Positions 31,600 to 49,507 of a stretch of DNA of 64,000 nt are shown here, in pieces. Origin of the DNA: Oscillatoriaceae cyanobacterium M7585_C2015_266 (GTDB taxonomy: Bacteria; Cyanobacteriota; Cyanobacteriia; Cyanobacteriales; Oscillatoriaceae); assembly GCA_015295835.1 (NCBI GenBank), contig DVEG01000025.1, positions 62,001 to 126,000 of the forward strand, given 5' to 3'. The position numbers were made by a program, and so were the translations under genes. How positions within the stretch are numbered: the first letter of the stretch is position 1; each line of letters starts with the position of its first letter. The notes under the pieces were generated by a model. It had not been told where the DNA came from and did no database searches. It worked only from the letters and a program-made list of their open reading frames with translations.

Positions 31600-32496
31600 T
31601 TATTCAATTCTTCCCCGTATATGTGAAAGCTTTAAATTTAAAATTGACAGACCTAAAATCAGTAAAAATAAAACCAGTCCAAGAGCGCAGGCATAGTTCA
31701 TTTCCAATTCTCGAAAAGCCTTTTGATAGATATAGTAAACAATTGTTTTAGAACTATTTTGTGGCCCGCCTTGGGTCATAATATAAATTTCTTCAAAAAC
31801 TTTTGTAGCGGAAATTGCAGAAATCACTGCTACCAATAAGAGATAAGGTTTCATTAAAGGTAGGGTGATATCCCAGTGTAGGCGCCAACCGTCAGAACCG
31901 TCAATAGCGGCGGCTTCGTATAATTCAGCCGGGATAGCTTGTAATCCTGCCAGATAAATTACCATATAGTAACCTAAGCCTTTCCACACTGTAACTGCCA
32001 TGACACTAAAAATGGCTAGTTGTGGGCTTGTGAGCCAGGGGATGCCTTCGCCACGGGGAATGATTCCCAGGAGAGCGAGAAGTTGATTGAGCAAACCGGT
32101 TTCGGCATAAAGCCACTTCCAGGCAATTCCGGCTACAACCATTGAGATGATGACGGGGGTATAGTAAGCGGCTCGAAACCATGTGATGCCGGGGAGTTTA
32201 CGGTTGACTAAGATGGCGAGTACCAGGGGTGCGACAACTAAAATCGGCACCACGACGACGAGGTAGAGGAGAGTTTGCAGGAGAGTTTGCCAAAATAGAT
32301 GATCAGTCCACAAGCGACGAAAGTTGGCCATGCCTACCCATTCTGGTGCTTGCGTGATGTCGTAGCCAAAACGGGTGAAACTGAGGTAAAAGGCTTGGAG
32401 GGCGGGCCAAAAAACGGTCAGCCCTAGGGCTAAGAGTGCAGGGAGGAGGAAAAGGTAGGGGGTGAGGATTTGCCAGAGATGGGATTTGGGTTGCAC
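31600..32496 (-). CDS. ABC sugar transporter permease, MalF/UgpA type
   Basis: Six-helix permease of a carbohydrate ABC importer. The EAA loop is exact: ELYEAAAIDGSDGWRLHWDITLPLMKP. The start is uncertain. The frame is open to 32589, but that would overlap the upstream kinase gene by 47 bases and add a hydrophilic Tyr/Asn-rich leader. GTG 32496 (then QPKSHLWQILTPYLFLLPALLALG) gives a normal N-terminus. No MalG partner, ATPase or binding protein is nearby. It lies directly downstream of the signalling cassette on the same strand and could be read from the same transcript. That may be coincidence. Confidence 0.88.
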   Translation of the reverse strand: MQPKSHLWQILTPYLFLLPALLALGLTVFWPALQAFYLSFTRFGYDITQAPEWVGMANFRRLWTDHLFWQTLLQTLLYLVVVVPILVVAPLVLAILVNRKLPGITWFRAAYYTPVIISMVVAGIAWKWLYAETGLLNQLLALLGIIPRGEGIPWLTSPQLAIFSVMAVTVWKGLGYYMVIYLAGLQAIPAELYEAAAIDGSDGWRLHWDITLPLMKPYLLLVAVISAISATKVFEEIYIMTQGGPQNSSKTIVYYIYQKAFRELEMNYACALGLVLFLLILGLSILNLKLSHIRGRIE

Positions 32497-32542
32497 GTTG
32501 GGGTTTGAATAGTAATTAAAATAGTAATTAAAGTAATTAATT

Positions 32543-33664
32543 TTAGTTGTGCAAGGGAAGCTTAACGGTAAACGTGCTGCCGATACCAACTTTGCTTTCG
32601 ACAGTGATTTCGCCGCCGTGCAAATCTACAGAGCGCTTAACTATTGCTAATCCCAGCCCTGTACCGGGAATATTGCCTACATTGGTGGCGCGGTGGAAGA
32701 CTTGAAAAAGCTGCGCTTGTTCTGTTTCTGGAATGCCGATACCCTGATCTTGGACGCGAAAAATCGCCTGCTCGCCTTCTCGCGTCAGTAGCAAACGAAC
32801 TTTGCCGCCTTCAGGAGAATATTTAATTGCATTTGAGATTAAATTGGTAAGGATGTGGTGCAGCAGGTGATTATCCATCACTGCATCACTGAAGTCGCCT
32901 TCAGCGATAAACTCAATTGTGTGATGACTTTCCGCACCTTGTCGTAGCGATTCCACCAGCTCAGAGCAAAAGTAAACCAGATCTAAGGGAATAGGATTAA
33001 ACTCAATTTTCCCAGAGTCAGCTCTGCCGATGGTAAGAACATCTTCTAACATCTGATTCATGCTTCTGACAGCAGATTGAATGCTGTCAAAATGTTTTAT
33101 TTTTTTTTCTTCTGTTAACTGATCGCCGTATTGCTTAAGTATTTCGGTGCTGATGAATATTGTAGTAAGTGGGTGGCGAAATTCATGGGAAGCCATACAC
33201 ACATAATGAGAATGGCGATCGCGTTCTTCTTCTGCCTGCTTTTTCATTTTTTCTACTATTTCCAGGCGCAATTTAATATTCTGTTCTACTTGGTGACGAC
33301 GCAAGGCAATCTCAATAGTTGTGTGCAATTCTTTCTCTTCAAATGGTTTTATCAAGTAGCCAAAAGGTTCTGTCGCCGTTGCTCGCTCCACCGTTTTTTG
33401 ATCAGCATAAGCAGTTAAATAAACAACAGGGATATCAAATTTCCTGCGAATTTCCCCTGCCGCCTCCACGCCGTCTATTTTTCCAGGCAGCATAATATCC
33501 ATCAGCACTAAATCTGGCCTCTTTTTACTAGCTATCTCAATTGCCTTTTCGCCACTAGCAACAATATCAACTACAGAGTAACCAAGATTTCTTAAAGTAT
33601 CGGCTAGATCTTCAGCTACAATCAGTTCATCTTCAACAATTAGAATTTTTTTGCTGGCTTTCAT
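32543..33664 (-). CDS. REC-HisKA-HATPase sensor kinase, partner of the CBCR kinase
   Basis: The order is unusual: the receiver comes first (about 5-120, phospho-Asp in LVLMDIMLPGKIDG, Lys in IKPFEEKE), then a helical linker, HisKA with His in SHEFRHPLTTI (about 158) and HATPase_c with N box HILTNLISNAIKYSPEGG and G boxes QGIGIP and GTGLGLAIV. It has no sensor or membrane part, so it should be a cytoplasmic relay kinase whose own receiver takes phosphate from an upstream kinase. It starts 5 bases after the stop of the CBCR sensor-kinase gene, so the two are coupled. It is closely similar in layout and sequence to the product at 38735-39853. Confidence 0.92.
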   Translation of the reverse strand: MKASKKILIVEDELIVAEDLADTLRNLGYSVVDIVASGEKAIEIASKKRPDLVLMDIMLPGKIDGVEAAGEIRRKFDIPVVYLTAYADQKTVERATATEPFGYLIKPFEEKELHTTIEIALRRHQVEQNIKLRLEIVEKMKKQAEEERDRHSHYVCMASHEFRHPLTTIFISTEILKQYGDQLTEEKKIKHFDSIQSAVRSMNQMLEDVLTIGRADSGKIEFNPIPLDLVYFCSELVESLRQGAESHHTIEFIAEGDFSDAVMDNHLLHHILTNLISNAIKYSPEGGKVRLLLTREGEQAIFRVQDQGIGIPETEQAQLFQVFHRATNVGNIPGTGLGLAIVKRSVDLHGGEITVESKVGIGSTFTVKLPLHN

Positions 33665-33669
33665 CTTCT

Positions 33670-36600
33670 TTAAATTCTCTGCTTATATTTCAATTCAGAA
33701 AACTTAATTCGAAATTCAGTTCCCTCGCGGGTATCCATTTCCACTGTTCCCTCTAGCTGGTTAGTGAGAGAGTCTACTAGACGCAAGCCTAAAGAGCCAG
33801 TGTTACGGAAGTCGAGTCCTTCAGGAAAGCCGATGCCATTGTCTTTTACTATTAGTAACAATTGATTGTCTGCCACCTGATAGAACTCAATCCAAATGGT
33901 GCCTTTCCTGCCACCGGGAAAAGCGTGTTTAAGAGCGTTGGATACCAGTTCGTTGATCAGTAAGCCACAAGGAATGGCTGTATCAATGTTGAGATAAACG
34001 TTATCTACTCTTATTTCCAGTTTAACCGCATTTACGTCTACGCTGTAAGAATAAAGAAGATTGCGGGCTAGAGTTTGGATGTAGTCAGCGAATTCAATCT
34101 GGGCAAGTGCCGGAGATTGATATAATTTTTCGTGGATCAGGGCCATTGATTTAACGCGGTTTTGACTTTCCCGGAGCATGTCTAAGGTGGCCTTATCCTG
34201 AGTATAGCGGGATTGCAGTTTGAGCAAGCTGGAAATTACCTGGAGGTTATTTTTAACGCGGTGGTGAATTTCCGTCAGAAGCACTTCTTTTTCTTGTAAG
34301 GAGGCTTTGATTTGCTCTTCTGCTTGCTTACGCTCAGTGATATCGCGAGTTACGGTTGCAAAGTTGATGGGCTGTGCGGTTTTTTTGTCTTTGATGACGA
34401 AAGCATTCCAGAGTACCGGGATGGGTTTTCCGGTTTGGAAGTGCCGGAAATTAATCTCTTGTTCCCATCGCCCTTGTTCTAAGAGCGTTGGTATTGCTTT
34501 TTCGCGGACGACATCCTGGTATTCGGGCATGAAAAAATCTAAAATTTGTGTTTTTCTGATTTCTGCTATTCCTTCGATTCCGACTAGACGCTGCCCTGCT
34601 TGATTGAGAAATAGGGTTTGCCCGTCGAGGGTAAAAATACCGATGAAGTCGGTGCTATTTTCAACTACTAAGGCAAGCTGTTGTCGTTCTGCTTCGATAA
34701 GTTTGCGATCGCTTATATCGCGCTGAATTACCATTATATAAGCAAATTCCCCACTGCGACGCACTACCGAACATGAGCAATCCATAATAGCAATAGTACC
34801 ATCTTTGCGGAGCAACTCCACTTCTTGGCGGTGGCTACCCTTTTCCAGCAGGTAGGGAAAAGCGTTTGCGAAACTATTTCGCGACTCTGGCGTAAAAAAT
34901 TCATCCAGCCGCTTACCGATTAATTCTTCTTCTTGATAACCTGATTGCCTGATACTGGCGGGATTAGTTTGACGAATTATTCCCTGCTCATCTACTACAT
35001 GGATAAAATCCGGAGCTGCTTCAAATAATGAGCGAAAGCGTACTTCGCTTTCTTTGAGTGCTTCTTCAGCTTGTTTGCGGTAAGTAATGTCAATACGGAT
35101 AGCTAAATATTGGAATGGTTTCCCGCCTTCATCTAGAAATGGTACAATTGTGGTATCTACCCAATAATAACTGCCATCTTTGGCTTTATTTTTTATTTCC
35201 CCTTGCCAAACTTGCCCCTTAGTAATTGTCTGCCAAAGTCCCTGAAAAAATTCTTTACTATGATATCCAGAATTTACTATTTTATGAGTTTTTCCTATCA
35301 TTTCCTCTCTTGAATATTGGGAAATTTCGCAGAATTTGTCATTAGCATAAGTAATAATACCATTGCTGTCTGTGATAGCTACTAATGCGGCTGTATCAAG
35401 TGCGAACTTTTGAAATTCTAATTCTTTGAGAGCTTTTTGCAAACGGGCTTCTGCCTGCTGACGTTCGGCAATTTCTTGCTGTAATTGTTCGACGGCTTGG
35501 GTGAGAGCGGTAGTGCGTTCTTGAACGCGACGTTCCAATTCTTCATTCATCTGCGCTAGGGCTGCTTCTGCTCGTTTGCGATCGCTAATATCAATAGAAA
35601 CCCGGATAATCCCGATAAGCTCTCCTTGATTATTATAAATTGGCGAATCGATCACGTGTGCCGGAAACGTTTTGCCATCCTTACGCGTCACTATAAGTTC
35701 CCCTGACCAACCGACGCCAGACTGTAATAATTTCCAAACCTCAGAAGCAATTTTTTTACTTTTTTCATTGCGGACAATCACTTCTATTGATTGCCCGAAT
35801 ATTTCCGATGATTCCCAGCCGTAGAGTATTTCAGCAAAGCGATTCCAATAAATAATCTTACCTTCGATATCTGTAGCGATGACTGCTTGCTGCACGGCAT
35901 CTAACAGTCGCGCCTGAAAACTAATTTGTTGTTCAGCTTTTTTGCGTTCGGTAATATCACGATAAGCGCTTAAAAATAACTCCTGATTATCTTGCTCAAT
36001 TATTGACGAAGAAACCAAAAGAAATTTTTCTGTCCCATCTTTGGCGCGAATTTTTGTTTCGACATTGCGAATTTCTCGAACAGAGCGCAATTGTTGCAGG
36101 CGAGACAGACTGGCGTGATACTCTACCGGCTCGGGATAAAGCAAAGCCAAAAAATTTTCACAGCGATTAGCTTCCTCTAGAGTATAACCGGTAATTTCCT
36201 GCATTTTAGAATTAAAAATACTAAAATGCCCAAATTCATCACTGAGAGTAATACCTTCGCCGACAGTTTCAATAACAGTAAGCATCCGCTCGGCGCTTTC
36301 TTTCATTACTCTTTCGGCTTGTTTACGTTCGGTAATGTCGGTAATAGCTGTGACAATATAGCAGCGGTTATCTTCTCCGAAAGCTCTGCCGGTGGTGACA
36401 TATAGATCAAATATTTGTCCATCTTGACGACGAATCTGCCACTCTCCTTCAATAGATAAGCTACAAGCTAGTTCTCTATTATTCTTAGAAGCTTCTTGAT
36501 TGATTTGTTTCTGAATAGCCGACAGATAAAGCATTTGTGCGAATTCGCGGCTTTCTGGCGGTAATAAACTGGTAAAAGTTCTGCCGAGTAATTCTTTAGC

Positions 36601-37812
36601 AGAGTAACCAAAAATTTGGCAAAAGGCGGAATTGACGCGCACGAATCGCCCCTGCTCGTCGGTAATAGAAATGCCAACGGTGGCGGATTCGTAAAAGGAG
36701 GCAAGCAATTGTTGGCTTTCCTCGAACATTTCCTCGGCTCGCCGACGTTCATATAATTGAACTTGAAGCTGCTCTAAAAGTTCGGCTTGATTGATAGCGA
36801 TCGCTATTTGTAGGCTCACCTGTTCTAAAAAATCCACTTCTGCTGAGTGCCACTCGCGAATTTTTGAGCATTGATGTGCTACCAGCAAGCCCCACAAGCG
36901 GGGAGAGGTATCAGGTGTGGAATGTGGTAATTTAGGAATAACTATCGGTACAATCAGACAGGCTTTTGCTTGAAAGCGCTCTAACAATTGCAAGTGACAG
37001 TCGCTCAATCCCGCTTGATAAATATCAGCGATCGCTCTTTTGCGGGCATATCGATATTCTACCCGTGCCCACTGTGGAAAACAGTAATCTGAGAATCGGC
37101 TGCCGAGCATTTCTGCCCAACCTTGCTCTACTGATTCTGCAACTATACTACCTTCCCAGTTTGGCAAAAATTTATAAATCAATACCCGCTCACACTTAAG
37201 CGATTGTTGCACTTCTCGCACTGCTGTTTGTAAAATTTTTTCTAAATTTATTCCTTGACAGATTAACGATACTATATTATTTTTAGCCTGCTCTCGTTCA
37301 TGCACTTTGGTAGTAGGCTGAGAAACCTGAGAAATTTGGTTTTTTTGGAAAAATCGAGTTACTAGCAGTAAGTCTTTCTCTGTTACTATTCCCAATAATT
37401 GGCTGCTATCGCCGATTACAGGTAAAAATTCGACATCCAGTTGCTGCATTAATTGCCAAGCCTTTAACAGGGAATCATCGGGGCGCAGACTCCCCTCCAG
37501 CTTGCGCATAATATCTTGTGCCAAAATTTGAGCTGCATCGACTCTGCGTGCTAGCAATTTGATAATTTCCCGCTCTGTGACAATGCCGATAGGCAGGCAG
37601 GAATGGGGAATTTTTTCTGCTGTTGCGATTGCTACCCAACTGCTGCCACTCTCGCTGATGATTTCAGCCAACTGCTGCACTGTGGCTGTGGGTGGTGCCG
37701 TTATCATTGTTTTTGACATCACTTCCGCAACCAGGGGCTGTTGCAGGTTATTTTCAGTCTGTCGGTTGTTGACTGCTTCTGGAGGGGGTGGAGGAAGTGT
37801 TTTGTCATTCAT
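33670..37812 (-). CDS. CBS-cyanobacteriochrome GAF-PAS(6)-HisKA_2 sensor kinase
   Basis: 1380 aa with no membrane segment. Domain order: two CBS motifs (about 25-170); a GAF domain (about 185-345); six PAS domains, each ending in a DITERK-type box; then the HisKA_2/HWE phosphoacceptor [16 protein letters not shown] and a HATPase with [16 protein letters not shown]. The GAF domain carries DYCF (242-245, Cys244) and a Cys-His pair (Cys272, His273 in [11 protein letters not shown]). It ends in [10 protein letters not shown]. These are the two chromophore-linking Cys positions of DXCF cyanobacteriochromes, 28 residues apart. I therefore predict covalent bilin binding and photoswitching. CBS domains suggest added control by adenosine nucleotides. 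The REC-kinase gene follows 5 bases downstream. Confidence 0.9.
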
Positions 37813-37847
37813 TTTTTTGGCAGAAGTTTTTTGCTCGTCTGGCTCAT

Positions 37848-37880
37848 AGAAACCCAGTTTCTTAAAGAAACCTGGTTTCT
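37848..37880. repeat. Dispersed 33-base imperfect palindrome, copy 2
   Basis: It differs from copy 1 (24857-24889) at only two positions. It lies just upstream of the CBCR kinase start codon, so it may influence that gene's transcript, or may simply be a resident repeat. Confidence 0.7.
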
Positions 37881-37982
37881 AGTTTTATTATATGTTTTTT
37901 GTTTACCGATTGAACAGGCTTTTTTTGAAAGCGCCTCAAATTCTTCTGCCTTGAGCAATTCTACTAATATATTCTGTTTTTT

Positions 37983-38678
37983 TCAGTTTTTTTTCTGAGT
38001 CAGCAAAAGCAATAAATTTACATTTTCTGGGGTGAGCAATTCTTTCAATTTAGACAATTGATTGAGAAAAGCTATTTGCCGTTCGTTTTCTTCCCGTAAG
38101 ATTTTCAAATATCGTTCGCGAGCTTCATCTGATGGTGCTATTTTCAGCATCTGAAGCGCCATCGCAATATTAGACGCAGGAGCCCGCAATTCCAGAGATA
38201 TTTTTTGCAGCAACTCTTCCGCCGTATTAGTTACCATTTGCAGTTCTTGTACTCTTTTTTGTAGTTTTTTAGCGCGATCGCGCTCAACTTCATACTGCTG
38301 TATATAGATTTTATTTCTTTCCAAACGAGTGGCGATCGCTGTTAGCAATTCCTCTGGTGTACATGGCTTCGTCAAATAATCATCCGCCCCTAAATTCATA
38401 CCCTTCCGGATATCATCTTTCGTCTCTTTCGCCGTCAAAAAAATCAGCGGTATAGTTGCCGTTTTCGGATCATTTTTCAACTCTGTCAGCACGCCATAGC
38501 CATCTAGCTCAGGCATCATCAAATCGCAAATAATCAAATCCGGCTTGTGCTCTCTTGCTAGTTTCACGCCGATTTTCCCATTGCTGGCGCCAATTCCCTG
38601 AATATTCTCAGCCTGTAGCAGTTCTAAAATATTCTCTCGGATATTTTTTTCATCTTCAATTACTAGAACTTTGATCAT
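37983..38678 (-). CDS. Response regulator with degenerate histidine-kinase dimerisation domain
   Basis: The receiver (about 1-120 from ATG 38678, MIKVLVIEDEKNI) has phospho-Asp in LIICDLMMPELDG and the Lys in YLTKPC. A coiled coil follows, then a HisKA-like hairpin with LLQKISLELRAPASNIAMALQMLK. At the place of the phospho-accepting His (usual form S-H-E-L-R-x-P) there is Leu, and no HATPase domain follows. The region should dimerise but cannot be phosphorylated. The tail reads LLTPENVNLLLLL. A paralogue with the same build lies at 45190-45903. Located between two sensor-kinase cassettes on the same strand. Confidence 0.85.
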   Translation of the reverse strand: MIKVLVIEDEKNIRENILELLQAENIQGIGASNGKIGVKLAREHKPDLIICDLMMPELDGYGVLTELKNDPKTATIPLIFLTAKETKDDIRKGMNLGADDYLTKPCTPEELLTAIATRLERNKIYIQQYEVERDRAKKLQKRVQELQMVTNTAEELLQKISLELRAPASNIAMALQMLKIAPSDEARERYLKILREENERQIAFLNQLSKLKELLTPENVNLLLLLTQKKN

Positions 38679-38734
38679 TTTTCCTTGATTCTGGATAACA
38701 ACATTAATCATAAATCTGCTTTTTTGTATTTATT

Positions 38735-39853
38735 CTAATCACTATGACTCTGCAAAGGCAGCGTAACAGTAAAAGTTGTACCCTTTCCGACTTCGCTGTC
38801 AAAAGTAATTTTGCCCTTATGTAGCTCGACAGAGTGTTTGACTATCGCCAGCCCCAAACCCGTGCCGGAAATATTGCCCACATTACTGGCGCGGTGAAAA
38901 ATTTCAAACAAGTGCTTTCTATCTTCCGGCGGAATACCGATGCCTTCATCTTGGATACGAAAAACAGCTACTTGTTGAGACGGCTCACAGGTGAGTTGAA
39001 ACTTAACTTTACCACCATTAGGAGAATACTTCACCGCATTGGAAAGCAAATTGCAGAAAATATGGCGCAGCAAATATTCATCCATCAGCGCGTTGGTACA
39101 ATCACCCTGAGAGGAAAAGGATATATCATACTTTTCGCCAGCGATAAGTTGCATCTCTTCAACGAGACTAGAGCAGAAGTTTTCTAGATTGATTGCTGTT
39201 GGATGAAATTCTAACTTATTTGCTTCTGCTTTCCCGATTGTCAAAACCGAATCGAGTAAATTCGTCATCTGCTTGACAGCAGTTTGGATACGCTGCAGGT
39301 GTGTAACTTTTTTTTCTTCTGACAACTTGTTGCCGTAATTTTCTAGCAAGCCTGCCGAGAAAAGAATTGTAGACATTGGCGTACGGAATTCGTGGGATAC
39401 TATCGAGATAAAGTGGTTTTTGAGTTCCCGGAGTTCTTTTTCTTTTTCCAGGGCTTTGCGAATTTTGGCTTCTGCTTGCGAGCGCGCCAGGGCTATTTCC
39501 ACCGTGGTATATATGTCTTGTTCTTCAAACGGTTTAACAATATAACCATAAGGTTCTGTTTCCTTAGCACGTTGCAGAGTTTTGCTATCCGTATGCGCCG
39601 TTAGATACACTACAGGAATTTGATACAATTTGCGCAAGCGCTCGGCAGCTTCTACTCCATCCATGCTTCCTTTTAACATGATATCCATCAAAACAATATC
39701 TGGCTGAATTTCGCCAATTTTATCTAGCATTTTTTCAGCCGATGTCATGACAGCAGGAACAGCATATCCCAAATTTATTAAAGTTCTTTTAATATCCAAT
39801 GCAATAATAGTTTCATCTTCAACAATCAGAATTTTTGCCTTTGACATATCCAT
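38735..39853 (-). CDS. REC-HisKA-HATPase sensor kinase, partner of the LOV kinase
   Basis: The receiver domain comes first (phospho-Asp in IVLMDIMLKGSMDG, Lys in VKPFEEQD), then HisKA with His in SHEFRTPMSTI and HATPase_c with N box NLLSNAVKYSPNGG and G boxes DEGIGIPPED and GTGLGLAIV. The ATG at 39853 follows directly after the stop codon of the LOV-kinase gene with no gap, so the two are translationally coupled. No sensor domain of its own. Clearly paralogous to the 32543-33664 gene, which sits in the same position behind the CBCR kinase. The likely flow is sensor kinase to receiver, then control of the attached kinase. Confidence 0.92.
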   Translation of the reverse strand: MDMSKAKILIVEDETIIALDIKRTLINLGYAVPAVMTSAEKMLDKIGEIQPDIVLMDIMLKGSMDGVEAAERLRKLYQIPVVYLTAHTDSKTLQRAKETEPYGYIVKPFEEQDIYTTVEIALARSQAEAKIRKALEKEKELRELKNHFISIVSHEFRTPMSTILFSAGLLENYGNKLSEEKKVTHLQRIQTAVKQMTNLLDSVLTIGKAEANKLEFHPTAINLENFCSSLVEEMQLIAGEKYDISFSSQGDCTNALMDEYLLRHIFCNLLSNAVKYSPNGGKVKFQLTCEPSQQVAVFRIQDEGIGIPPEDRKHLFEIFHRASNVGNISGTGLGLAIVKHSVELHKGKITFDSEVGKGTTFTVTLPLQSHSD

Positions 39854-41698
39854 TTAATTATTTATACGCGAAGGAAAAACAATTGTAACTTCAGTACCTT
39901 TTTGGCTGCTGAAAGTTAATTCGCCGCCCAACTGCTCAGTTAAGTTGACAATTAACTGCCAGCCAAGCGATTCGGTTTCTAACGGATTGAAACCAGGGGG
40001 TAAACCCACGCCATTGTCGCTGACTTTCAGAATAAACCGACTATTTTCTTGCTGGTGGTAAAAACTAATACTAATTTCCCCCTTCATTTCGCCTGGGAAG
40101 GCGTATTTTAGAGAATTAGAGATTAGTTCATTGATAATTAACCCACAAGGAATAGCCGTATCGATATCTAGAGTAATATCTTCGATTTTTTGTTGCAAGT
40201 CAATCCGTGAAGATACTAGCCTATAGGAGCTAAACAAGTTAGAGGTAAGGCTATGGATGTAATCGGGTAAATCAATTTTTGTGAAATCGGAGGAGCGATA
40301 AAGCTTTTCATGTATTAAAGCCATAGATTTAATACGGTTGTGGCTATCCTTAAACATTGCCAGCGCTTGCTCATCTTGGATGTAGGTAGATTGGAGGTTA
40401 AGGAGGCTGGAGATAATTTGTAAGTTATTTTTGACGCGGTGGTGAACTTCTTTGAGTAACACTTCTTTTTCTTTGAGAGAGGCTATGAGTTGCTCTTGGA
40501 TTTGCTGGCGCTCAGTAATATCGGTTTGAATACCGATAAAGTGGGTGAGGTTACCCTCAGTATCGTAGATAGGGGAAATACTAAGCTCATTCCAGAATAA
40601 ACTACCATCTTTTCGGTAATTCCGTAAAATAACGGTGCAGCTTTTTCCTTCTTGAATTGCTGCTTTCAATCTTTTTAATTCGGCTTGATTGTTATCTTTT
40701 CCCTGGAGGAAACTACAGTTTCGCCCTATTGCTTCTTCGCTGCTATATCCTGTTATTCGCTCGAAGGCAGGATTGACGTAAATTGTAGGTAATCCCGGCT
40801 TTCTGGCGTCGGCAATAATAATGCCATTGCTGCTGGCAGCAAGTGCTCTCTCTCGCCATTTTAATATTTCTTCGACTTTTTTTCTTTCGGTGATTTCTTC
40901 CACCATACCCAAACCGTATATAGGTTTTCCTTCGCGATCGCAAATTACTCCTGTTGTCAGATTCACCCACACTATTTCGCCGTTTTTCTTAATATAGCGC
41001 TTTTCTATTTTATAATTTTTGATTTCCCCGCTCCAACATTGTTTTACGTAGAGCATTTCTCGCTCTATATCTTCAGGGTGACTGAAATCTTTAAAGGTAC
41101 AGTTTTCTAATTCTGCTTCAGTATAGCCCAATAATTTGCAAAATACAGGATTTACTTGTACAACTTTGCCATCTATGTTACAAATCGCCATACCGATAGG
41201 GGCGTCTTCAAAAAGACGGCGAAATTTTTCTTCACTTTCGCGCAGGGCTATTTCTACTTGCTTGCGATCGCTGATATTCCGGGAAACAGCGACAATTTCT
41301 AGTACCTTTTGACTTTGGCGATCGCGCACTGTTTTACTAGTAGTCTCCAGCCATATATAATTACCATTTTTGCAGCGGAATCGGTAGCTAATTGTATAAA
41401 TATCCGACTTTTCTAAAACAGCACTATGGATTTTTTTAATTGCTGCCACATCTTCTGGGTGAAAAAATTCATAAGGAGAACATCCCAACATTTCTTCAGG
41501 TTCATAGCCCAACAAAGAGCGACAAGCAGGTGAAACATAGAGATAAATTCCCTCTTCGGGAGAGTGACGTGTAATAATATCAGTAGAATTTTCCGCAATC
41601 AGACGATAAAGAGCTTCACTTTCCCGCAAAGCTTGTTCCCAAAGTTTGCGCTCAGTAATATCCGCAACTACTCCACTCATGGCCACTGGTTGGCCCAT
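39854..41698 (-). CDS. LOV-PAS-HisKA_2 sensor kinase, C-terminal part of a split gene
   Basis: Open frame of 614 aa holding the end of one PAS domain, three further PAS domains and a HisKA_2/HWE kinase ([18 protein letters not shown] box INELISNSLKYAFPGE). The last PAS before the kinase is a LOV domain. It has GRNCSFLQG with the flavin-adduct Cys at residue 328, followed by NYRKDGSLFWNELSISPI and FIGIQTDITERQQ, as in blue-light LOV kinases. The frame continues upstream through a single TAA into the 41726-42946 fragment. As it stands, translation would need to begin inside a PAS domain (GTG or ATG near 41680-41698), which may still give a working LOV kinase. Confidence 0.88.
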   Translation of the reverse strand: MGQPVAMSGVVADITERKLWEQALRESEALYRLIAENSTDIITRHSPEEGIYLYVSPACRSLLGYEPEEMLGCSPYEFFHPEDVAAIKKIHSAVLEKSDIYTISYRFRCKNGNYIWLETTSKTVRDRQSQKVLEIVAVSRNISDRKQVEIALRESEEKFRRLFEDAPIGMAICNIDGKVVQVNPVFCKLLGYTEAELENCTFKDFSHPEDIEREMLYVKQCWSGEIKNYKIEKRYIKKNGEIVWVNLTTGVICDREGKPIYGLGMVEEITERKKVEEILKWRERALAASSNGIIIADARKPGLPTIYVNPAFERITGYSSEEAIGRNCSFLQGKDNNQAELKRLKAAIQEGKSCTVILRNYRKDGSLFWNELSISPIYDTEGNLTHFIGIQTDITERQQIQEQLIASLKEKEVLLKEVHHRVKNNLQIISSLLNLQSTYIQDEQALAMFKDSHNRIKSMALIHEKLYRSSDFTKIDLPDYIHSLTSNLFSSYRLVSSRIDLQQKIEDITLDIDTAIPCGLIINELISNSLKYAFPGEMKGEISISFYHQQENSRFILKVSDNGVGLPPGFNPLETESLGWQLIVNLTEQLGGELTFSSQKGTEVTIVFPSRINN

Positions 41699-41725
41699 TT
41701 CGTCTCGTAAGACATCGCCCTTCCC

Positions 41726-42946
41726 TTAAACCCAGCGGATGCTGCCATCGGCTCTAATAATACGAGGTTCGACATTTAAGGGTACCCCTTGCTCAAGGGC
41801 GCGAGCTATTTCTGTTTGCAGTAAATCGCGCTCCTCCGGATGGATGCAATTGATAAACGCCTCAAAAGTTGCCGGAAAAGTGCCGGGAGCAAAGCCAAAA
41901 ATCTCTTCTGTTTTTTGTGAGCAAATAATTTTACCAGTAGCGATTTCCCAATCCCAAGTTCCCATTTGAGCGGCTTCGAGAGCCATTCGCAACCGTTTTT
42001 CACTATCCCGTATTACTGGGATAGCATCAATAATGGCGCGATAGTAAGCTTCACTCTGGCACAGGGCTTCCTTTGCCCGTGTCTTTTCTGTAATATCAAT
42101 TCCAACCGCAACTGCTGCACTACCTTGCTGGTATTTTTGAACGGTAATTAAAAATTTGCGTGTTGAGCCTTTAAGGTTTGTTTCAATGATGCGGTTAGCT
42201 TTCATATCCGAGCTATTCAGAAACTGGTGTATAAATTCAACCAGTTGCTGGCTCTTATCAAGAAAGCCGATTTTTTTTCCGATAAAAGTTTCAGGAGGTA
42301 AGTTACAGCTTTCCGCTAGTTGCTGATTAACACCGAGATATCGCCCTTGGGAATCAAACCAGAAAATAAACCCAGGCACGGCATTTAAAATGGCATTTAG
42401 TTGCTCGTTTGTTTGTTGTAATTTTACTAAAGCTTGTTTGCCCTCGGTGATACATTCCGTACAATCACGTATTGATAAACCCCATCCTCTTAAGTTTCCA
42501 TAATTATCAATAATGTGAGTTATAAAAATGTGAGCGTGAAAAGGTTGGTTATTTCTTCTATATAGTATTGTTTGCCAGTGTTGTATTTTTTCTGAGGGCT
42601 TTAGTGATTGTAATTGCTTGCGCAAACTTGCTTGCTCTGATTCACAAGCCAATATTTCTAGGGGTTTGCCGAGGAGAAAGGAGGGGGCGACTTCTAGCAG
42701 GGCGGCAGCGGCGCGATTGGCTTCTCGGATTATCCCGTCTGTATCAATGACGAGATAGGCATCGGGTGCGAATTCAAATAACTGTTGATAGTGCTGGTGT
42801 TTTGAGGCGAGGGTGTCTTGAATGGAGATAAGTTTTTCTATATCTGTAGCCAGAGAAGTGATATCGGGGGATGGAGCACTTTTTTGTAATTTTGCTAATC
42901 GCTGTCGCACTTTTTGTACCTGCTCTGCTAATGTGTAAGTGTTCAC
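41726..42946 (-). CDS. PAS-domain N-terminal part of the split LOV kinase gene
   Basis: 406 aa with a helical N-terminus and three PAS domains (FAPDAYLVIDTDGIIREANR; VPGFIFWFDSQGRYLGVNQ; TWDWEIATGKIICSQKTEE). It stops in the middle of the third domain: ADGSIRWV, then TAA at 41726-41728, while the same frame goes on GKGDVLRDEMGQPVAMSGVVADITERK. The intact gene would be 1031 codons (39854-42946). A CAA to TAA change is the simplest explanation. The fragment has no kinase domain and would be a dead-end sensor unless the stop is read through. Confidence 0.8.
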   Translation of the reverse strand: MNTYTLAEQVQKVRQRLAKLQKSAPSPDITSLATDIEKLISIQDTLASKHQHYQQLFEFAPDAYLVIDTDGIIREANRAAAALLEVAPSFLLGKPLEILACESEQASLRKQLQSLKPSEKIQHWQTILYRRNNQPFHAHIFITHIIDNYGNLRGWGLSIRDCTECITEGKQALVKLQQTNEQLNAILNAVPGFIFWFDSQGRYLGVNQQLAESCNLPPETFIGKKIGFLDKSQQLVEFIHQFLNSSDMKANRIIETNLKGSTRKFLITVQKYQQGSAAVAVGIDITEKTRAKEALCQSEAYYRAIIDAIPVIRDSEKRLRMALEAAQMGTWDWEIATGKIICSQKTEEIFGFAPGTFPATFEAFINCIHPEERDLLQTEIARALEQGVPLNVEPRIIRADGSIRWV

Positions 42947-43330
42947 TTCAGTTCCCCTCTATGAAGCTTTAACATATTAATAGCGGTTATATCTCAGAGT
43001 TTCTATGAAGGCAAGGGATTTTTCCCTAAGTTTTCCGTATTTTTTTTAGAGAAACTGTCGAGTTTTTCTGAGAAATTACTTAGACAGGTGGGGTTTGCTT
43101 TAAAATGGGTGTTAATTGTATCACCCTATTTATACGCCTGTCAATACTCTGGCGAGCGCGATTTTTTACCCTGCTGGTGGGTTCTTGGGCTGGCATTTTC
43201 TTCCCCACCTACCAGCTCTCCCATTATTTTTTCTCATCTTCTGCTTTTTCTTTAATTTCCTATCGCGCCATCAAACATCCCTGCTAAAAAATTAGCAAAA
43301 TCCCCCAGAATAGAAAGCTACTTTCTTTTC
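42947..43330. other. Intergenic gap in the signalling island
   Basis: 384 bases between the REC-GGDEF-EAL gene and the LOV kinase gene, both on the minus strand. It presumably holds the LOV-cassette promoter. I see no repeat, RNA or credible small gene; a 60-codon plus-strand frame here is not convincing. Confidence 0.4.
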
Positions 43331-45052
43331 TCAAATAGAGAGGCGTTTGTCTGCTCTTACCATCGCCTCAAAATCCTCACTGCCTACCGGGCGACTAAAT
43401 AAATAGCCCTGCATTTCATCGCACATACAATCGCAAATAAAATCTAATTCTGATTTTGTTTCGACTCCTTCGGCGATAACGCGCAAATTTAAATTGTGAG
43501 CCATTTGAATAATAGCGCTAGTAATTGCCGCGTTTTTGGCATCTTCACAAATATTGCGCACAAAACATTGGTCTATTTTTACAGTATCAAAAGGAAATTG
43601 TTTGAGATAACTTAAAGAGGAATATCCAGTTCCAAAATCATCTATTGATAGTTTTAATCCCAGAGATTTTAACTCTTTTAAATTAGACCTATTTTCCTCT
43701 ATGTTTTGAATTACAATTCTCTCAGTCAGCTCCAATTCTAGAAATTGCGGATCAATACCAGTGCTTTGTAATATCCGAACTACCCGCTGACTGAAATTTG
43801 GCTGATAAAATTGGCGCCCTGACAGGTTAACAGAAATTCGCAATGGCGGCATGCCAGCGCGATTCCAGGTCACTAATTGACTGCAAACAGTTTGCAAAAC
43901 CCATTCTTCGATTAGCATGATCGAGCCGTTTTGTTCGGCAATGGGAATAAATTCTGCCGGGGAGACGAATCCTAATTCCGGGTGCTGCCAACGCAAAAGG
44001 GCTTCGGCACCGACAATGCGACGGGTTTGCAAGTCTATTTGAGGCTGATAGTAGACTTTTAACTCTGAGCGCTCTAAAGCGTAATGTAGTCCAGCTTCTA
44101 TAGCCAGCAATCGGGAAAGGTAGCCTTTCATCTCTGGTTTGTAGAATTGATATTGATGGCCACCTTGTTGTCTAGCATGGAATAGGGCAGCGTCTGCGTG
44201 TTGGAGTAAGTTGTCGATATCTTTGCTGTCATTGGGATAGAGGGCAATACCGATGCTGGCGGTGAGGAAAATTTCCTGCCCTTGAAGTAGGAAAGGCTCG
44301 GCAAGCACATCGAGGAGAATTTTAGCAATGCGCGAGGCATCGGGGCTGGTTGAGGGGCTTAAGATGATGACAAATTGATCGGAATTAAAGCGGGCGATGG
44401 TGTGAGTGCTTCCAAGACAGCTTCTGAGTCGGTGGGCTACGGCTTTTAGTAATTGATTGCCAATGGTGTGACCTAGGGTTTCGTTGATGCGGCTGAAGCG
44501 ATCTATATCTAAGGAGAGAACGGCTAGAGTTTGTTGTTGGCGGTTAGCTTGCAACATCAATTGTTGCAGGCGAGCGCGTAACAGCTGTTGATTAGGGAGA
44601 TTGGTGAGATTATCGTAATTAATTAGATAATTGAGCCTTTCTTCAATTTGCTTGAGTTCGGTGTTGTAGCGGTGGACAACAGCTGTTTGTTTTTCTAGAC
44701 GTGCTGCGATCGCCTTGAGTAGCTCCTGACGACGAAACGGCTTAGTGAGATAATCATCTGCGCCTAAATTCATCCCCTGCCGCAAATCAGCTTTATCTGC
44801 CTTAGCCGTCAGGAAAATAAACGGAATCGTTGCCGTTTTCGGGTCTTTTTTGAGGGCATCGAGCACCCCGTAGCCGTCCAGTTCTGGCATCATGATATCA
44901 CACAAAATCAAATCGGGAATGTATTCTTTTGCCAGCTCTACCCCGATCCTGCCATTTTCTGCGCCGATTGCCTCAAAATCGTCCGCGTCGAGGATTTCCA
45001 GAATATTATCCCTGACGACACTTTCATCTTCGATCACGAGAATCCTTCGCAT
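43331..45052 (-). CDS. REC-GGDEF-EAL protein, probable c-di-GMP phosphodiesterase
   Basis: The receiver (phospho-Asp in LILCDIMMPELDG, KPFRRQE) is followed by GGDEF and EAL domains. The GGDEF motif is degraded to FNSDQF (in HTIARFNSDQFVIIL), so cyclase activity is unlikely, and this domain may act as a GTP sensor. The EAL domain keeps EALLRW, the metal-binding DDFGTGYSSLSYLKQFP and the late Glu in VIAEGVETKSE, so it should hydrolyse cyclic di-GMP. I start at ATG 45052 (MRRILVIEDE). It sits between two receiver genes on the same strand and is a natural output module for the nearby photoreceptor kinases. Confidence 0.93.
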   Translation of the reverse strand: MRRILVIEDESVVRDNILEILDADDFEAIGAENGRIGVELAKEYIPDLILCDIMMPELDGYGVLDALKKDPKTATIPFIFLTAKADKADLRQGMNLGADDYLTKPFRRQELLKAIAARLEKQTAVVHRYNTELKQIEERLNYLINYDNLTNLPNQQLLRARLQQLMLQANRQQQTLAVLSLDIDRFSRINETLGHTIGNQLLKAVAHRLRSCLGSTHTIARFNSDQFVIILSPSTSPDASRIAKILLDVLAEPFLLQGQEIFLTASIGIALYPNDSKDIDNLLQHADAALFHARQQGGHQYQFYKPEMKGYLSRLLAIEAGLHYALERSELKVYYQPQIDLQTRRIVGAEALLRWQHPELGFVSPAEFIPIAEQNGSIMLIEEWVLQTVCSQLVTWNRAGMPPLRISVNLSGRQFYQPNFSQRVVRILQSTGIDPQFLELELTERIVIQNIEENRSNLKELKSLGLKLSIDDFGTGYSSLSYLKQFPFDTVKIDQCFVRNICEDAKNAAITSAIIQMAHNLNLRVIAEGVETKSELDFICDCMCDEMQGYLFSRPVGSEDFEAMVRADKRLSI

Positions 45053-45189
45053 TAGACTTCGCTCTTGCATATACAGGGTTGGCTTTCAAAAAACACCATA
45101 AACATTATACCCAATTTTTCTCATTTTTTGAAAAAATTTTTCTCCTTTTACTCCATTTTTATGATTTCGCTCTTTCAATTCGCTAAAAT

Positions 45190-45903
45190 CTAATTTTCCG
45201 ATTTACTCGGATTAAGTAAATTAAATTGGCGCAGCAGCCGTATATTCTCTGGCGTCAGTAAACTTTGCAACTCAGCGACTTGATTGATAAGCTCAATCTC
45301 CCGTTGAAATTCCTCCTGTAAAATTTCCAGATAGCGTTCTTTTTGTGCTCCCGGCGGTGGCTCTTTGAGTAAGCGAATTGCCATATTGATATTTGATAGG
45401 GGGTTGCGCAACTCGGAAATCAATTTGTTTAAAATTTCCTTCTGGGTATTGCTTATGTGTTGGAGTTCGGTAATTTTTCGCTGCAACTCTTCAGCGCGTT
45501 TTTGTTCAGCCGCGTATTGCTGCATAACGGCGGCATGTTTGGCAAGACGAATATTGATTGCTTCTAGCAGCTCCTTGCGCCTAAATGGCTTAGTTAGGTA
45601 GTCGTCAGCTCCCAAATTCATGCCTTGACGCAAATCAGTTTTGTCACTTTTAGCTGAGAGAAAAATAAAAGGAATTGTCTCCGTTAGCGGATCGCTGCGC
45701 AACTGAGTCAATACGCCATACCCATCGAGTTCTGGCATCATAATATCACATACGATTAAATCCGGAAGCTGCTCTTTTGCCAACTGCACCCCTACCATAC
45801 CATTTTCTGCACCAATTGCATTAAACCCCCCAGAGATTAGTATCTCTAGAATGTTACTTAACACTGGTTTTTCGTCTTCAATCACTAGAATCTTTTGCAT
45901 CAA
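45190..45903 (-). CDS. Response regulator with degenerate dimerisation domain, paralogue
   Basis: Same build as the 37983-38678 product. The receiver has phospho-Asp in LIVCDIMMPELDG, then a coiled coil and a HisKA-like hairpin reading LNKLISELRNPLSNINMAIRLL. The expected His is replaced (Ser in the aligned position), and no ATPase domain follows. The shared tail pattern LLTPEN-x-x-LL confirms common origin. It is upstream of the REC-GGDEF-EAL gene with a gap of about 140 bases. It could act as a dimeric phosphate sink or as an adaptor that pairs with true kinases through the helical hairpin. Confidence 0.85.
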   Translation of the reverse strand: MMQKILVIEDEKPVLSNILEILISGGFNAIGAENGMVGVQLAKEQLPDLIVCDIMMPELDGYGVLTQLRSDPLTETIPFIFLSAKSDKTDLRQGMNLGADDYLTKPFRRKELLEAINIRLAKHAAVMQQYAAEQKRAEELQRKITELQHISNTQKEILNKLISELRNPLSNINMAIRLLKEPPPGAQKERYLEILQEEFQREIELINQVAELQSLLTPENIRLLRQFNLLNPSKSEN

Positions 45904-47278: not shown

Positions 47279-49507
47279 ATGACACAGCCGGTAATTTGTC
47301 TTTCGCTAGCAGAGGCTAGGGATGCCTGGAAAGTTTGTCAGGTGTTGTGCCAACATCAGATTCGCCATTTGCCAGTAGTAGATGAAGAGCGGCTGGTGGG
47401 GTTAGTAACTTTAGAAAGTATACTGCGCAAACTTAGGAAAACCTCTAGCTGTCAGGAAGGGGAAGACTCTATCACCGCGATTGCCTCTTTGAGTAAAAGG
47501 GCTGAGGAAGAAACCAGTGATGCTCCTTCGGAATCACCCCAGGTGCGACTTACTGTTTCGCCCCTGCCGTTGGAGAAGTCAAGGAGTTTGAACAGACTTA
47601 CATCAGCTTATAGCTCACGTTCGATACCGCCTCCAACTGGGAAAGAGAGCGAGCGCTTTCGTTATATGATTGATAATCGATTTTCAGATATTATTTATTC
47701 TGAATTTGGGGAAATTATTAAGACGCGATGGAAGCAAATAAAAACAGAAGAAGTATCGGTTAAGCAATTTCCCTCACCAGAGGTTTCCTGCGACACCCCC
47801 CACTGTTTTGCTAGTGATGTGACTGAGTATAAAAAACAATTGGCGGAAGCTCTTGTGGAGAGTGAGGAACATTTCCGACAGATAGCCGGCAGTATTGACA
47901 TGGTGTTTTGGATTGCTTCCGTTGATATGAATCAGATATTATATATTAGTCCGGGGTATGAGCGGATATGGGGGCGCTCGCTAGCTCAATTGTACGAACA
48001 GCCACAATTGTGGTGGGAAACTATCCATATTGCTGAGCGCAAACGTTTGTTAGTTGCGCTCGCCAGACAAAGGCGAAAGCACTGCGAATTTAACGAAGAA
48101 TTCCGCATTCTCCTACCCGATGGCTCGATACGCTGGATTTGGGCACGTTCCTTCTTAATTCGTAACCAGCGAGGAGAAGTTTACCGCTGTACTGGTGTGG
48201 GAGTAGACATTACTGAACGCAAGCAGATGGAAGAAACCCTACTTTTAACCCAAAAGCGGCTACAGCAGTTGCTTTCTTCTAGCCCTGCTGTTATATATAG
48301 GGCCAAGATTTCCCGGGAGTGGGCGATTGATTTTGTTAGTGAAAACGTCACAGTTGTGCTCGGCTATCAACCGGAGGAATTTACCCAAGAGGCTTGTTTT
48401 TGGCGCGATCGCATTCACCCGCAAGATAAAGCCTGGGTTCTGGCTCAATTCCCAAAGCTATTAGCTGAGGAGCGCTACAGCTGCGAGTATCGATTTGTCT
48501 GCCGAGACGGGAGCTATCGCTGGCTGCGGGATGAAAGACGCCTGATTCGAGATAGTGCTGGCAATCCTCTAGAGATGGTTGGTTACTGGGCAGATATTAG
48601 CGCCCAAAAAGCAGCCGAAGAAGAGATGCGAAAAGCGCGCGCCAAAGAAAAAGAACTTTCTCAACTACGCTCTCGCTTCATCACCCTCACCTCTCACGAA
48701 TTCCGGACACCATTATGTACTATTCTCTCCTCAGCCGACTTACTAGAATACTACACGGAACAAGCAGAGCAATTCAAAAAGCAACTCGAAGAGATAATTG
48801 CTCAACTCCCGCTTTCGTCAGCACTAGCGAATCTGTATTCAGGAGGAAAGAAAAACAAAAAAATTCTGCCGCTGGAAAAATTACGCGAACACATCCAGCG
48901 TATTCAAAATGCCGCTTTACACATGACAGAAATGTTAAATAACATTTTCATCATCGGCAAAGCAGATGCCGGCTCCCTCACCTGCAATCTCCAACCCTTA
49001 GATTTGCGAGAATTTTGTCAGCAGCTTGTTGCAGAAATCAACAACAGCTCCAGCGAACCTTTGGGCGAAAAAATTTGTACAACGCATCCCATTACCTTTG
49101 TTTGTCGCGGCAACTGCTGCAACGCAGTCATGGATGAGAAATTGCTGCGCCATATCCTCAACAACTTGCTTTCTAATGCCATCAAATATTCTCCACAAGG
49201 CAGCCCCATTTTACTAGAACTCACCTGCCAGGATAACGAAGAAAATCATCCCGTTGCCATTTTCCGCATTTCTGATAGCGGCATTGGTATTCCCCCGGAA
49301 GATAGAGAAAAAATATTTGAATCTTTCTATCGCGGCAACAATGTCGGCAACAAATCAGGTATTGGTTTAGGGTTAGCTATTGTTAAAAAAGCTATAGAGA
49401 TTCAAGGAGGGCAGATTACTTTAGAAAGCGAAGTAGGAGCAGGCACCATTTTTACAGTTATCCTACCACTTTTTCCCGATTATAATTCTGAAATAGGTAA
49501 GAGGTAA
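47279..49507 (+). CDS. CBS-PAS(2)-HisKA-HATPase sensor kinase (truncated N-terminus)
   Basis: 742 aa. It begins inside a CBS pair (MTQPVICLSLAEARDAWKV to LVGLVTLESILRKL), followed by a low-complexity linker. Two PAS_3-type domains follow (MVFWIASVDMNQILYISPGYERIW; AVIYRAKISREWAIDFVSENV). The kinase is HisKA with His in LTSHEFRTPLCTI, N box HILNNLLSNAIKYSPQGS and G boxes DSGIGIPPED and GIGLGLAIV. The kinase is intact and belongs to the same subfamily as the REC-kinases on the other strand. The upstream half of the CBS pair is cut off by one in-frame TAG. It is the only plus-strand gene of the signalling island. Confidence 0.9.
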   Translation: MTQPVICLSLAEARDAWKVCQVLCQHQIRHLPVVDEERLVGLVTLESILRKLRKTSSCQEGEDSITAIASLSKRAEEETSDAPSESPQVRLTVSPLPLEKSRSLNRLTSAYSSRSIPPPTGKESERFRYMIDNRFSDIIYSEFGEIIKTRWKQIKTEEVSVKQFPSPEVSCDTPHCFASDVTEYKKQLAEALVESEEHFRQIAGSIDMVFWIASVDMNQILYISPGYERIWGRSLAQLYEQPQLWWETIHIAERKRLLVALARQRRKHCEFNEEFRILLPDGSIRWIWARSFLIRNQRGEVYRCTGVGVDITERKQMEETLLLTQKRLQQLLSSSPAVIYRAKISREWAIDFVSENVTVVLGYQPEEFTQEACFWRDRIHPQDKAWVLAQFPKLLAEERYSCEYRFVCRDGSYRWLRDERRLIRDSAGNPLEMVGYWADISAQKAAEEEMRKARAKEKELSQLRSRFITLTSHEFRTPLCTILSSADLLEYYTEQAEQFKKQLEEIIAQLPLSSALANLYSGGKKNKKILPLEKLREHIQRIQNAALHMTEMLNNIFIIGKADAGSLTCNLQPLDLREFCQQLVAEINNSSSEPLGEKICTTHPITFVCRGNCCNAVMDEKLLRHILNNLLSNAIKYSPQGSPILLELTCQDNEENHPVAIFRISDSGIGIPPEDREKIFESFYRGNNVGNKSGIGLGLAIVKKAIEIQGGQITLESEVGAGTIFTVILPLFPDYNSEIGKR

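Follow-up and report, generated by a model that had tools for sequence, protein, structure and literature searches.

Cyanobacteriochromes (CBCRs) have mostly been studied as isolated GAF domains. In the window, by which we mean the whole stretch of 64,000 nucleotides from Oscillatoriaceae cyanobacterium M7585_C2015_266 analysed here, a gene on the minus strand (33670-37812) places a CBCR-like GAF domain inside a long sensor histidine kinase, behind a CBS pair and ahead of a series of PAS domains. This raises two questions: is the domain a photosensor of the DXCF type, and is its fusion to CBS domains peculiar to this organism? A first-pass annotation had proposed a DXCF-type CBCR GAF domain in a CBS-GAF-PAS-HisKA_2 kinase and had described the combination as unusual; the former part of this proposal has held up whereas the latter has not. 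Motif, fold, domain order and relatives together lead us to predict, with considerable confidence, that the GAF domain (residues 189-340) is a DXCF-type CBCR photosensor in a multi-input histidine kinase.

Domain organisation of the kinase

The open reading frame starts with ATG and encodes 1380 residues, in which Pfam recognises a CBS pair (about residues 26-151; 37360-37737), the GAF domain (36793-37248), likewise placed by PDB sequence matches and predicted fold, five or six PAS domains by Pfam model (about residues 369-1160; 34333-36708), a HisKA_2 phospho-acceptor domain (residues 1181-1256; 34045-34272; E 1.4e-30) and a HATPase_c domain (residues 1284-1372; 33697-33963; E 3.2e-12), all on the minus strand. 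The presence of both HisKA_2 and HATPase_c marks the protein as a HisKA_2 histidine kinase. The length of the kinase, the position of Cys244 within DYCF and that of the Cys272-His273 pair, as first annotated, agreed in coordinates and numbering with the ORF and with a codon check, and the LLERF string and the ten-residue string reported with them are present in the translation. No PHY domain was found in the Pfam scan of the kinase, which reported 14 families, and the two PHY matches of the genome both lie on contig C7. The GAF domain therefore stands without a partner PHY, as is usual for a DXCF CBCR, and a phytochrome was rejected on the same ground. Promoter and terminator scans both gave counts near the shuffle level (3 versus 2.5 and 3 versus 2.0, respectively).

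Kinship of the GAF domain

The DXCF-type reading of residues 189-340 is well supported by the predicted fold and by sequence comparison. The top PDB sequence matches are CBCR GAF domains (6oap, E 4.4e-37; 3w2z, 3.1e-36; TePixJ 3vv4, 6.2e-28), and the first rows, all CBCRs or CBCR-derived, comprise PPHK (6oap), AnPixJ (5zoh and 3w2z), RcaE, NpR6012g4 and TePixJ, after which phytochromes follow. An AlphaFold model of residues 165-350, built from 35 aligned sequences, reached a mean pLDDT of 90.6 and has the GAF fold of the CBCR/phytochrome type. In VIA-align its ranks 1-14 are all CBCR or CBCR-derived chains (Z 23.5-25.9), including 6oaq (Z 25.9, rmsd 1.7, 174 aligned), 3w2z (Z 25.8) and TePixJ 4glq (Z 24.2, rmsd 2.0, 149 aligned residues with 35% identity), with phytochrome GAF domains next at Z of about 22-23. 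PPHK, a Leptolyngbya JSC-1 histidine kinase with two sensors, one of them a light-sensing GAF domain, is the top match both by sequence and by Foldseek; its GAF domain lacks the second cysteine (DQYF), in contrast to DYCF in the window. The other sensor of PPHK is a PAS domain.

A quick tree of 113 GAF domains (SH-aLRT support only, no bootstrap), from which 8 of 121 rows had been dropped beforehand for shortness, near-duplication or poor likeness, places the window GAF in a clade of 25 rows with a support of 95. Cysteine occupies column 244 in 21 of these rows. The clade lies apart from the red/green branch of AnPixJ and NpR6012g4, and TePixJ falls in yet another branch. The nearest grouping (support 84) unites the window GAF with seven rows, all from CBS-bearing proteins, one of which (L097; locus labels are ours) has its GAF domain further from the CBS part. 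The accessible part of PMC11284453 sets DXCF CBCRs apart from an extended red/green (XRG) lineage carrying WxDxxL. In addition to lying outside the red/green branch, the window GAF is devoid of WxDxxL, as expected of a DXCF CBCR: two residues before the motif Asp, by counting, it has Phe240 where AnPixJ has Trp, a place at which MAFFT puts a gap. A red/green CBCR that regained its cysteine was rejected on tree position and on this missing Trp, again by counting. A Phe on beta2 together with a Phe on helix 4 is tied, in the portion of PMC5240096 available to us, to red/green and teal-DXCF photoproducts. The corresponding residues in the alignment are Ile223 and Phe280, and since the Phe pair is incomplete a teal photoproduct is less likely; the teal type of DXCF CBCR was set aside on the Ile at the beta2 position, which is weak evidence.

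A conserved pair of cysteines

The DYCF motif (residues 242-245; 37078-37089, minus strand) contains the putative second cysteine, Cys244 (codon TGT at 37083-37081), and is followed by the canonical chromophore cysteine, Cys272, with His273 (36994-36999, minus strand; Cys272 codon TGT at 36999-36997). The surrounding residues read SDYCFPQW (241-248) and LSDCHLQL (269-276). The alignment with characterised CBCR GAF domains proposed in the first-pass annotation was made with the PDB letters of TePixJ, and it places D242, C244, F245, C272 and H273 on D492, C494, F495, C522 and H523, numbers that come from the part of PMC6955287 at hand except for F495, which was obtained by counting. The distance of 28 residues between the two cysteines, said to equal that of TePixJ, is thereby confirmed on the very columns of Cys494 and Cys522. 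A D-X-C-F cysteine 28 residues ahead of the canonical one is characteristic of DXCF CBCRs, as is the location of C272-H273 on what would be the A-ring helix (residues 271-279 of the predicted model).

Cysteines are present at both columns in 73 of 116 related GAF domains, a set that left out pieces spanning fewer than 110 query residues or with E above 1e-12, and in 55 of 60 GAF domains fetched separately, the two sets sharing some domains. A chance occurrence of the motif was rejected for this reason. Within the larger set the column-272 cysteine is kept in 73 of the 76 domains that have one at column 244, as expected for a working pair, versus 32 of the 40 that do not. The second cysteine is not fixed in the clade, since Tyr replaces it (D-X-Y-F) in three close CBS-linked kin, L067, L068 and L101. 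These three proteins offer a natural contrast for the two-cysteine photocycle.

The predicted bilin pocket and a third cysteine

Seventeen positions were compared with TePixJ. Seven match (D242, C244, F245, Y253, R257, C272 and H273) and ten differ (I223, F240, S241, Y243, W248, A249, A256, L276, F280 and C285). Thus TePixJ H498, W499, Q526 and N535 correspond to W248, A249, L276 and C285. According to the sections of PMC6955287 consulted, His498 and Trp499 hydrogen-bond the B-ring propionate, while Asn535, Asp492 and Gln526 lie beside the bilin. Moreover, Ala256 replaces a Gly found in 93 of the 116 GAF domains, and an insert before LWGLL sets the window GAF and TePixJ apart, as does the output, a kinase in the window protein versus chains named methyl-accepting chemotaxis protein for TePixJ. 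DXCF and CH motifs, their spacing and the fold are common to the window GAF and the TePixJ structures (3vv4, 4fof and 4glq).

The altered propionate contacts at 248/249 and the Tyr of the three close kin could be taken to mean that the domain binds a bilin but that its second cysteine does not add to C10, which would make it a one-cysteine CBCR carrying phycoviolobilin (PVB) or phycocyanobilin (PCB), with for instance a green/teal or red/green-like photocycle; as far as the available text of PMC11284453 goes, some CBCRs do form PVB without a second cysteine. We regard this as improbable given that DXCF and CH are complete in the window GAF and that the two cysteines tend to be kept together.

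The GAF domain has a third cysteine, Cys285 (36958-36960, minus strand), which the alignment puts on the column of TePixJ Asn535. Among the 116 GAF domains a cysteine at this column is found only in the window, L009 and L117, and the window GAF is the only one of the 73 dual-cysteine domains to combine it with the other two; none of the 60 GAF domains fetched separately has it. The column is variable in close kin (Y, K, S, I). It is also, in the alignment, the column of an RcaE Lys which we take to be Lys261, a protochromic tuning site. Elsewhere in the genome (contig C8), L009 is a CBCR-like GAF domain of a PAS-GAF-HisKA-RR protein that has Cys at column 285 and lacks both usual cysteines.

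The rarity of Cys285 and its place on a column that in TePixJ lies beside the bilin would fit a pocket of three thiols, in which it takes part in bilin addition or forms a disulfide with Cys244 or Cys272, making the domain responsive to both light and redox state. However, this residue is seen in a single dual-cysteine sequence and may thus be neutral, and with the column so variable among close kin we give such a pocket little credence. Its fullest form, a single CBS-CBCR copy in which Cys285 competes with Cys244 for the bilin or engages in a disulfide, and one HisKA_2 kinase, with a conserved RR-histidine kinase as its partner, integrates light, redox and adenine nucleotide signals, is a speculative proposal that we would not expect to hold. 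Least likely is a decayed CBCR GAF domain that has lost bilin binding and serves as a structural linker: the copy is indeed divergent (end branch 0.7 versus a median of 0.28 in the quick tree) and the canonical cysteine is lost in 4 of 38 CBS-linked kin among the matches listed (L080, L087, L093 and L098), but the ORF is intact, the kinase domains are present with a conserved core, and the seven residues named above are all as in TePixJ.

CBS-linked cyanobacteriochromes as a recurrent family

The ribose-site motif of CBS domains is G-h-x-T-x-x-D. The two Pfam CBS domains of the window protein have GIVTERE (residue 76), with Glu for Asp, and GIVTEKD (residue 141), both ribose-site-like; most kin with two CBS pairs have T-x-x-D only in the leading domain of each pair. 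With its single pair the window protein has fewer CBS domains than most kin, a feature that is not unique since L050 likewise shows a single pair. The linker between CBS and GAF is shorter than in L028, and their relative orientation is uncertain in the predicted model (pTM 0.59, linker pLDDT 55-61).

A search with a profile of three CBS-GAF proteins and with peptide patterns from the CBS part found a CBS pair at most 120 residues before a CBCR-like GAF domain, in one ORF, in 34 of the best 80 loci by match to the whole query, from 27 named genomes as counted from titles; the manner in which the loci were picked means that this ratio is not a frequency. At least 48 ORFs carry both CBS and a CBCR-like GAF domain, a count that takes in copies of the window protein itself as well as some duplicates. 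Among the matches listed, 38 distinct CBS-adjacent GAF domains include 30 that keep both cysteine columns, 20 with strict DXCF and CH, and 8 in which one or both cysteines are missing; the hosts include Oscillatoria, Nostoc, Calothrix, Anabaena, Tolypothrix, Pseudanabaena and Richelia. The CBS-linked GAF domains cluster on the tree (8 label changes versus 31.4 in shuffles), to which near-copies contribute. When loci were picked by the GAF domain alone and viewed with about 1.5 kb of flank, 5 of 29 outside the window (L028-L056) had CBS before the GAF domain in the same ORF. With at most five candidates scored per genome, a threshold of E 1e-48 was passed by 8 genomes out of 388, one of the 8 being the genome of the window; among the seven matches outside the window only L060 extends far into the CBS region.

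An architecture peculiar to this genome was therefore rejected, since CBS and CBCR-like GAF domains meet in many cyanobacteria, and with it fell the view of the combination as unusual, all the more so because the Oscillatoria princeps relative described below also ends in HisKA_2. A recurrent CBS-CBCR family, as judged from these sequences, replaces the idea of a one-off fusion. A fusion of CBS with a cyanobacteriochrome or phytochrome is not discussed in the open papers searched, a scope that excludes subscription papers and supplements. In the part available, PMC8846402 describes CBS as thought to be an energy sensor, apart from SesA, and what is accessible of PMC7291507 concerns a CBS-bearing histidine kinase of Arthrospira and mentions CBCR only in a reference.

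Neighbouring genes and the candidate partner

The best match to the GAF domain (51% identity) is found in Oscillatoria princeps RMCB-10 (L028/L102). Its protein of 1611 residues likewise has CBS domains and then a DXCF GAF, PAS and a HisKA_2-HATPase end, the HisKA_2 core being 72% identical to that of the window over 223 residues. It differs from the window protein by two CBS pairs instead of one, a second GAF domain before the kinase, a longer CBS-GAF linker and a Tyr at column 285 instead of Cys. The resemblance extends to the surroundings. The window kinase is followed, after five bases, by a gene for a response-regulator histidine kinase (RR-HisKA-HATPase) of 373 residues (32543-33664, minus strand), and in L102 a 66% identical gene lies directly downstream, beginning four bases past the kinase stop. 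It is followed there by a response regulator gene, 65% identical to that of the upstream neighbour in the window (242 residues; 37983-38711, minus strand), and by an RR-GGDEF gene. Oscillatoria sp. Prado101 (L066) has a CBS-GAF-HisKA_2 protein whose gene is preceded by one for an RR-histidine kinase (58%) and followed by a BPD transport gene that shares 80% identity with 31600-32589 of the window. Two Oscillatoria records thus pair such a kinase with an RR-histidine kinase neighbour, and this conservation makes 32543-33664 the best candidate partner and presumably the likeliest phosphate acceptor. These neighbour genes, Cys285 and the reduced number of CBS domains go beyond the first-pass annotation.

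Output domains vary within the family. Among five kin scanned only L102 has a HisKA_2 end, the other four (L067, L068, L097 and L101) having HisKA instead. The L066 HisKA_2 core nearest to that of the window (59%) sits in a neighbouring PAS kinase and not in the CBS-GAF protein, in which no HATPase_c above the cut-off was found.

The minus-strand region 31600-45903 is mostly devoted to signalling, with genes for BPD transport, an RR-histidine kinase, the CBCR kinase, a response regulator, a second RR-histidine kinase, a split PAS kinase, an RR-GGDEF-EAL protein and a response regulator with a HisKA-like part. The genes for the CBCR kinase and its response regulator lie between the two RR-HisKA-HATPase genes (32543-33664 and 38735-39853, minus strand), whose identity of 53% suggests a local duplication. 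The frame of a PAS...HisKA_2 kinase (39854-42946, minus strand) contains one in-frame stop, near 41726, which is why two ORFs are called (41726-42946 and 39854-41698). The plus strand (47279-49507) encodes a further PAS histidine kinase, in which a weak match to CBS lies close to the N-terminus. The RR-GGDEF-EAL gene (43331-45070) makes a c-di-GMP output of the cluster possible.

Chromophore supply, proposed mechanism and significance

The genome has two matches to haem oxygenase (2.5e-90 and 1.7e-79) and a single one to ferredoxin-bilin reductase (6.6e-77), the latter most simply read as PcyA. Including that of the window, 27 places in the genome match the GAF domain with E no higher than 1e-5, although some of them are fragments of a single domain.

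In the mechanism that we propose, Cys272 would covalently bind PCB at the A-ring, and the GAF domain may isomerise it to PVB. In the dark state Cys244 would add to C10 and give a form absorbing blue/violet light. Upon illumination the 15,16 bond would isomerise and the C10 bond break, yielding a form that absorbs at longer wavelengths (green with PVB, orange with PCB), so that the colour pair would be blue/green or blue-violet/orange. The signal could then travel along the helix that follows the GAF domain (residues 323-349 in the model) and on through the series of PAS domains until it reaches HisKA_2. An adenine nucleotide, read by the N-terminal CBS pair, may add a bias to this kinase, and the phosphate would pass to the neighbouring RR-histidine kinase (32543-33664). 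Chromophore, colours, nucleotide and partner are all presumptive here, and so is the joining of light and nucleotide sensing in one kinase, as predicted from its sequence.

That dual-cysteine CBCRs are repeatedly fused to CBS domains suggests that a single kinase may serve some cyanobacteria as a sensor of both light colour and cellular energy state. The idea lends itself to direct testing, since the family is large and includes close kin that have the second cysteine and others that lack it; if confirmed, it would provide natural templates for two-input optogenetic kinases.
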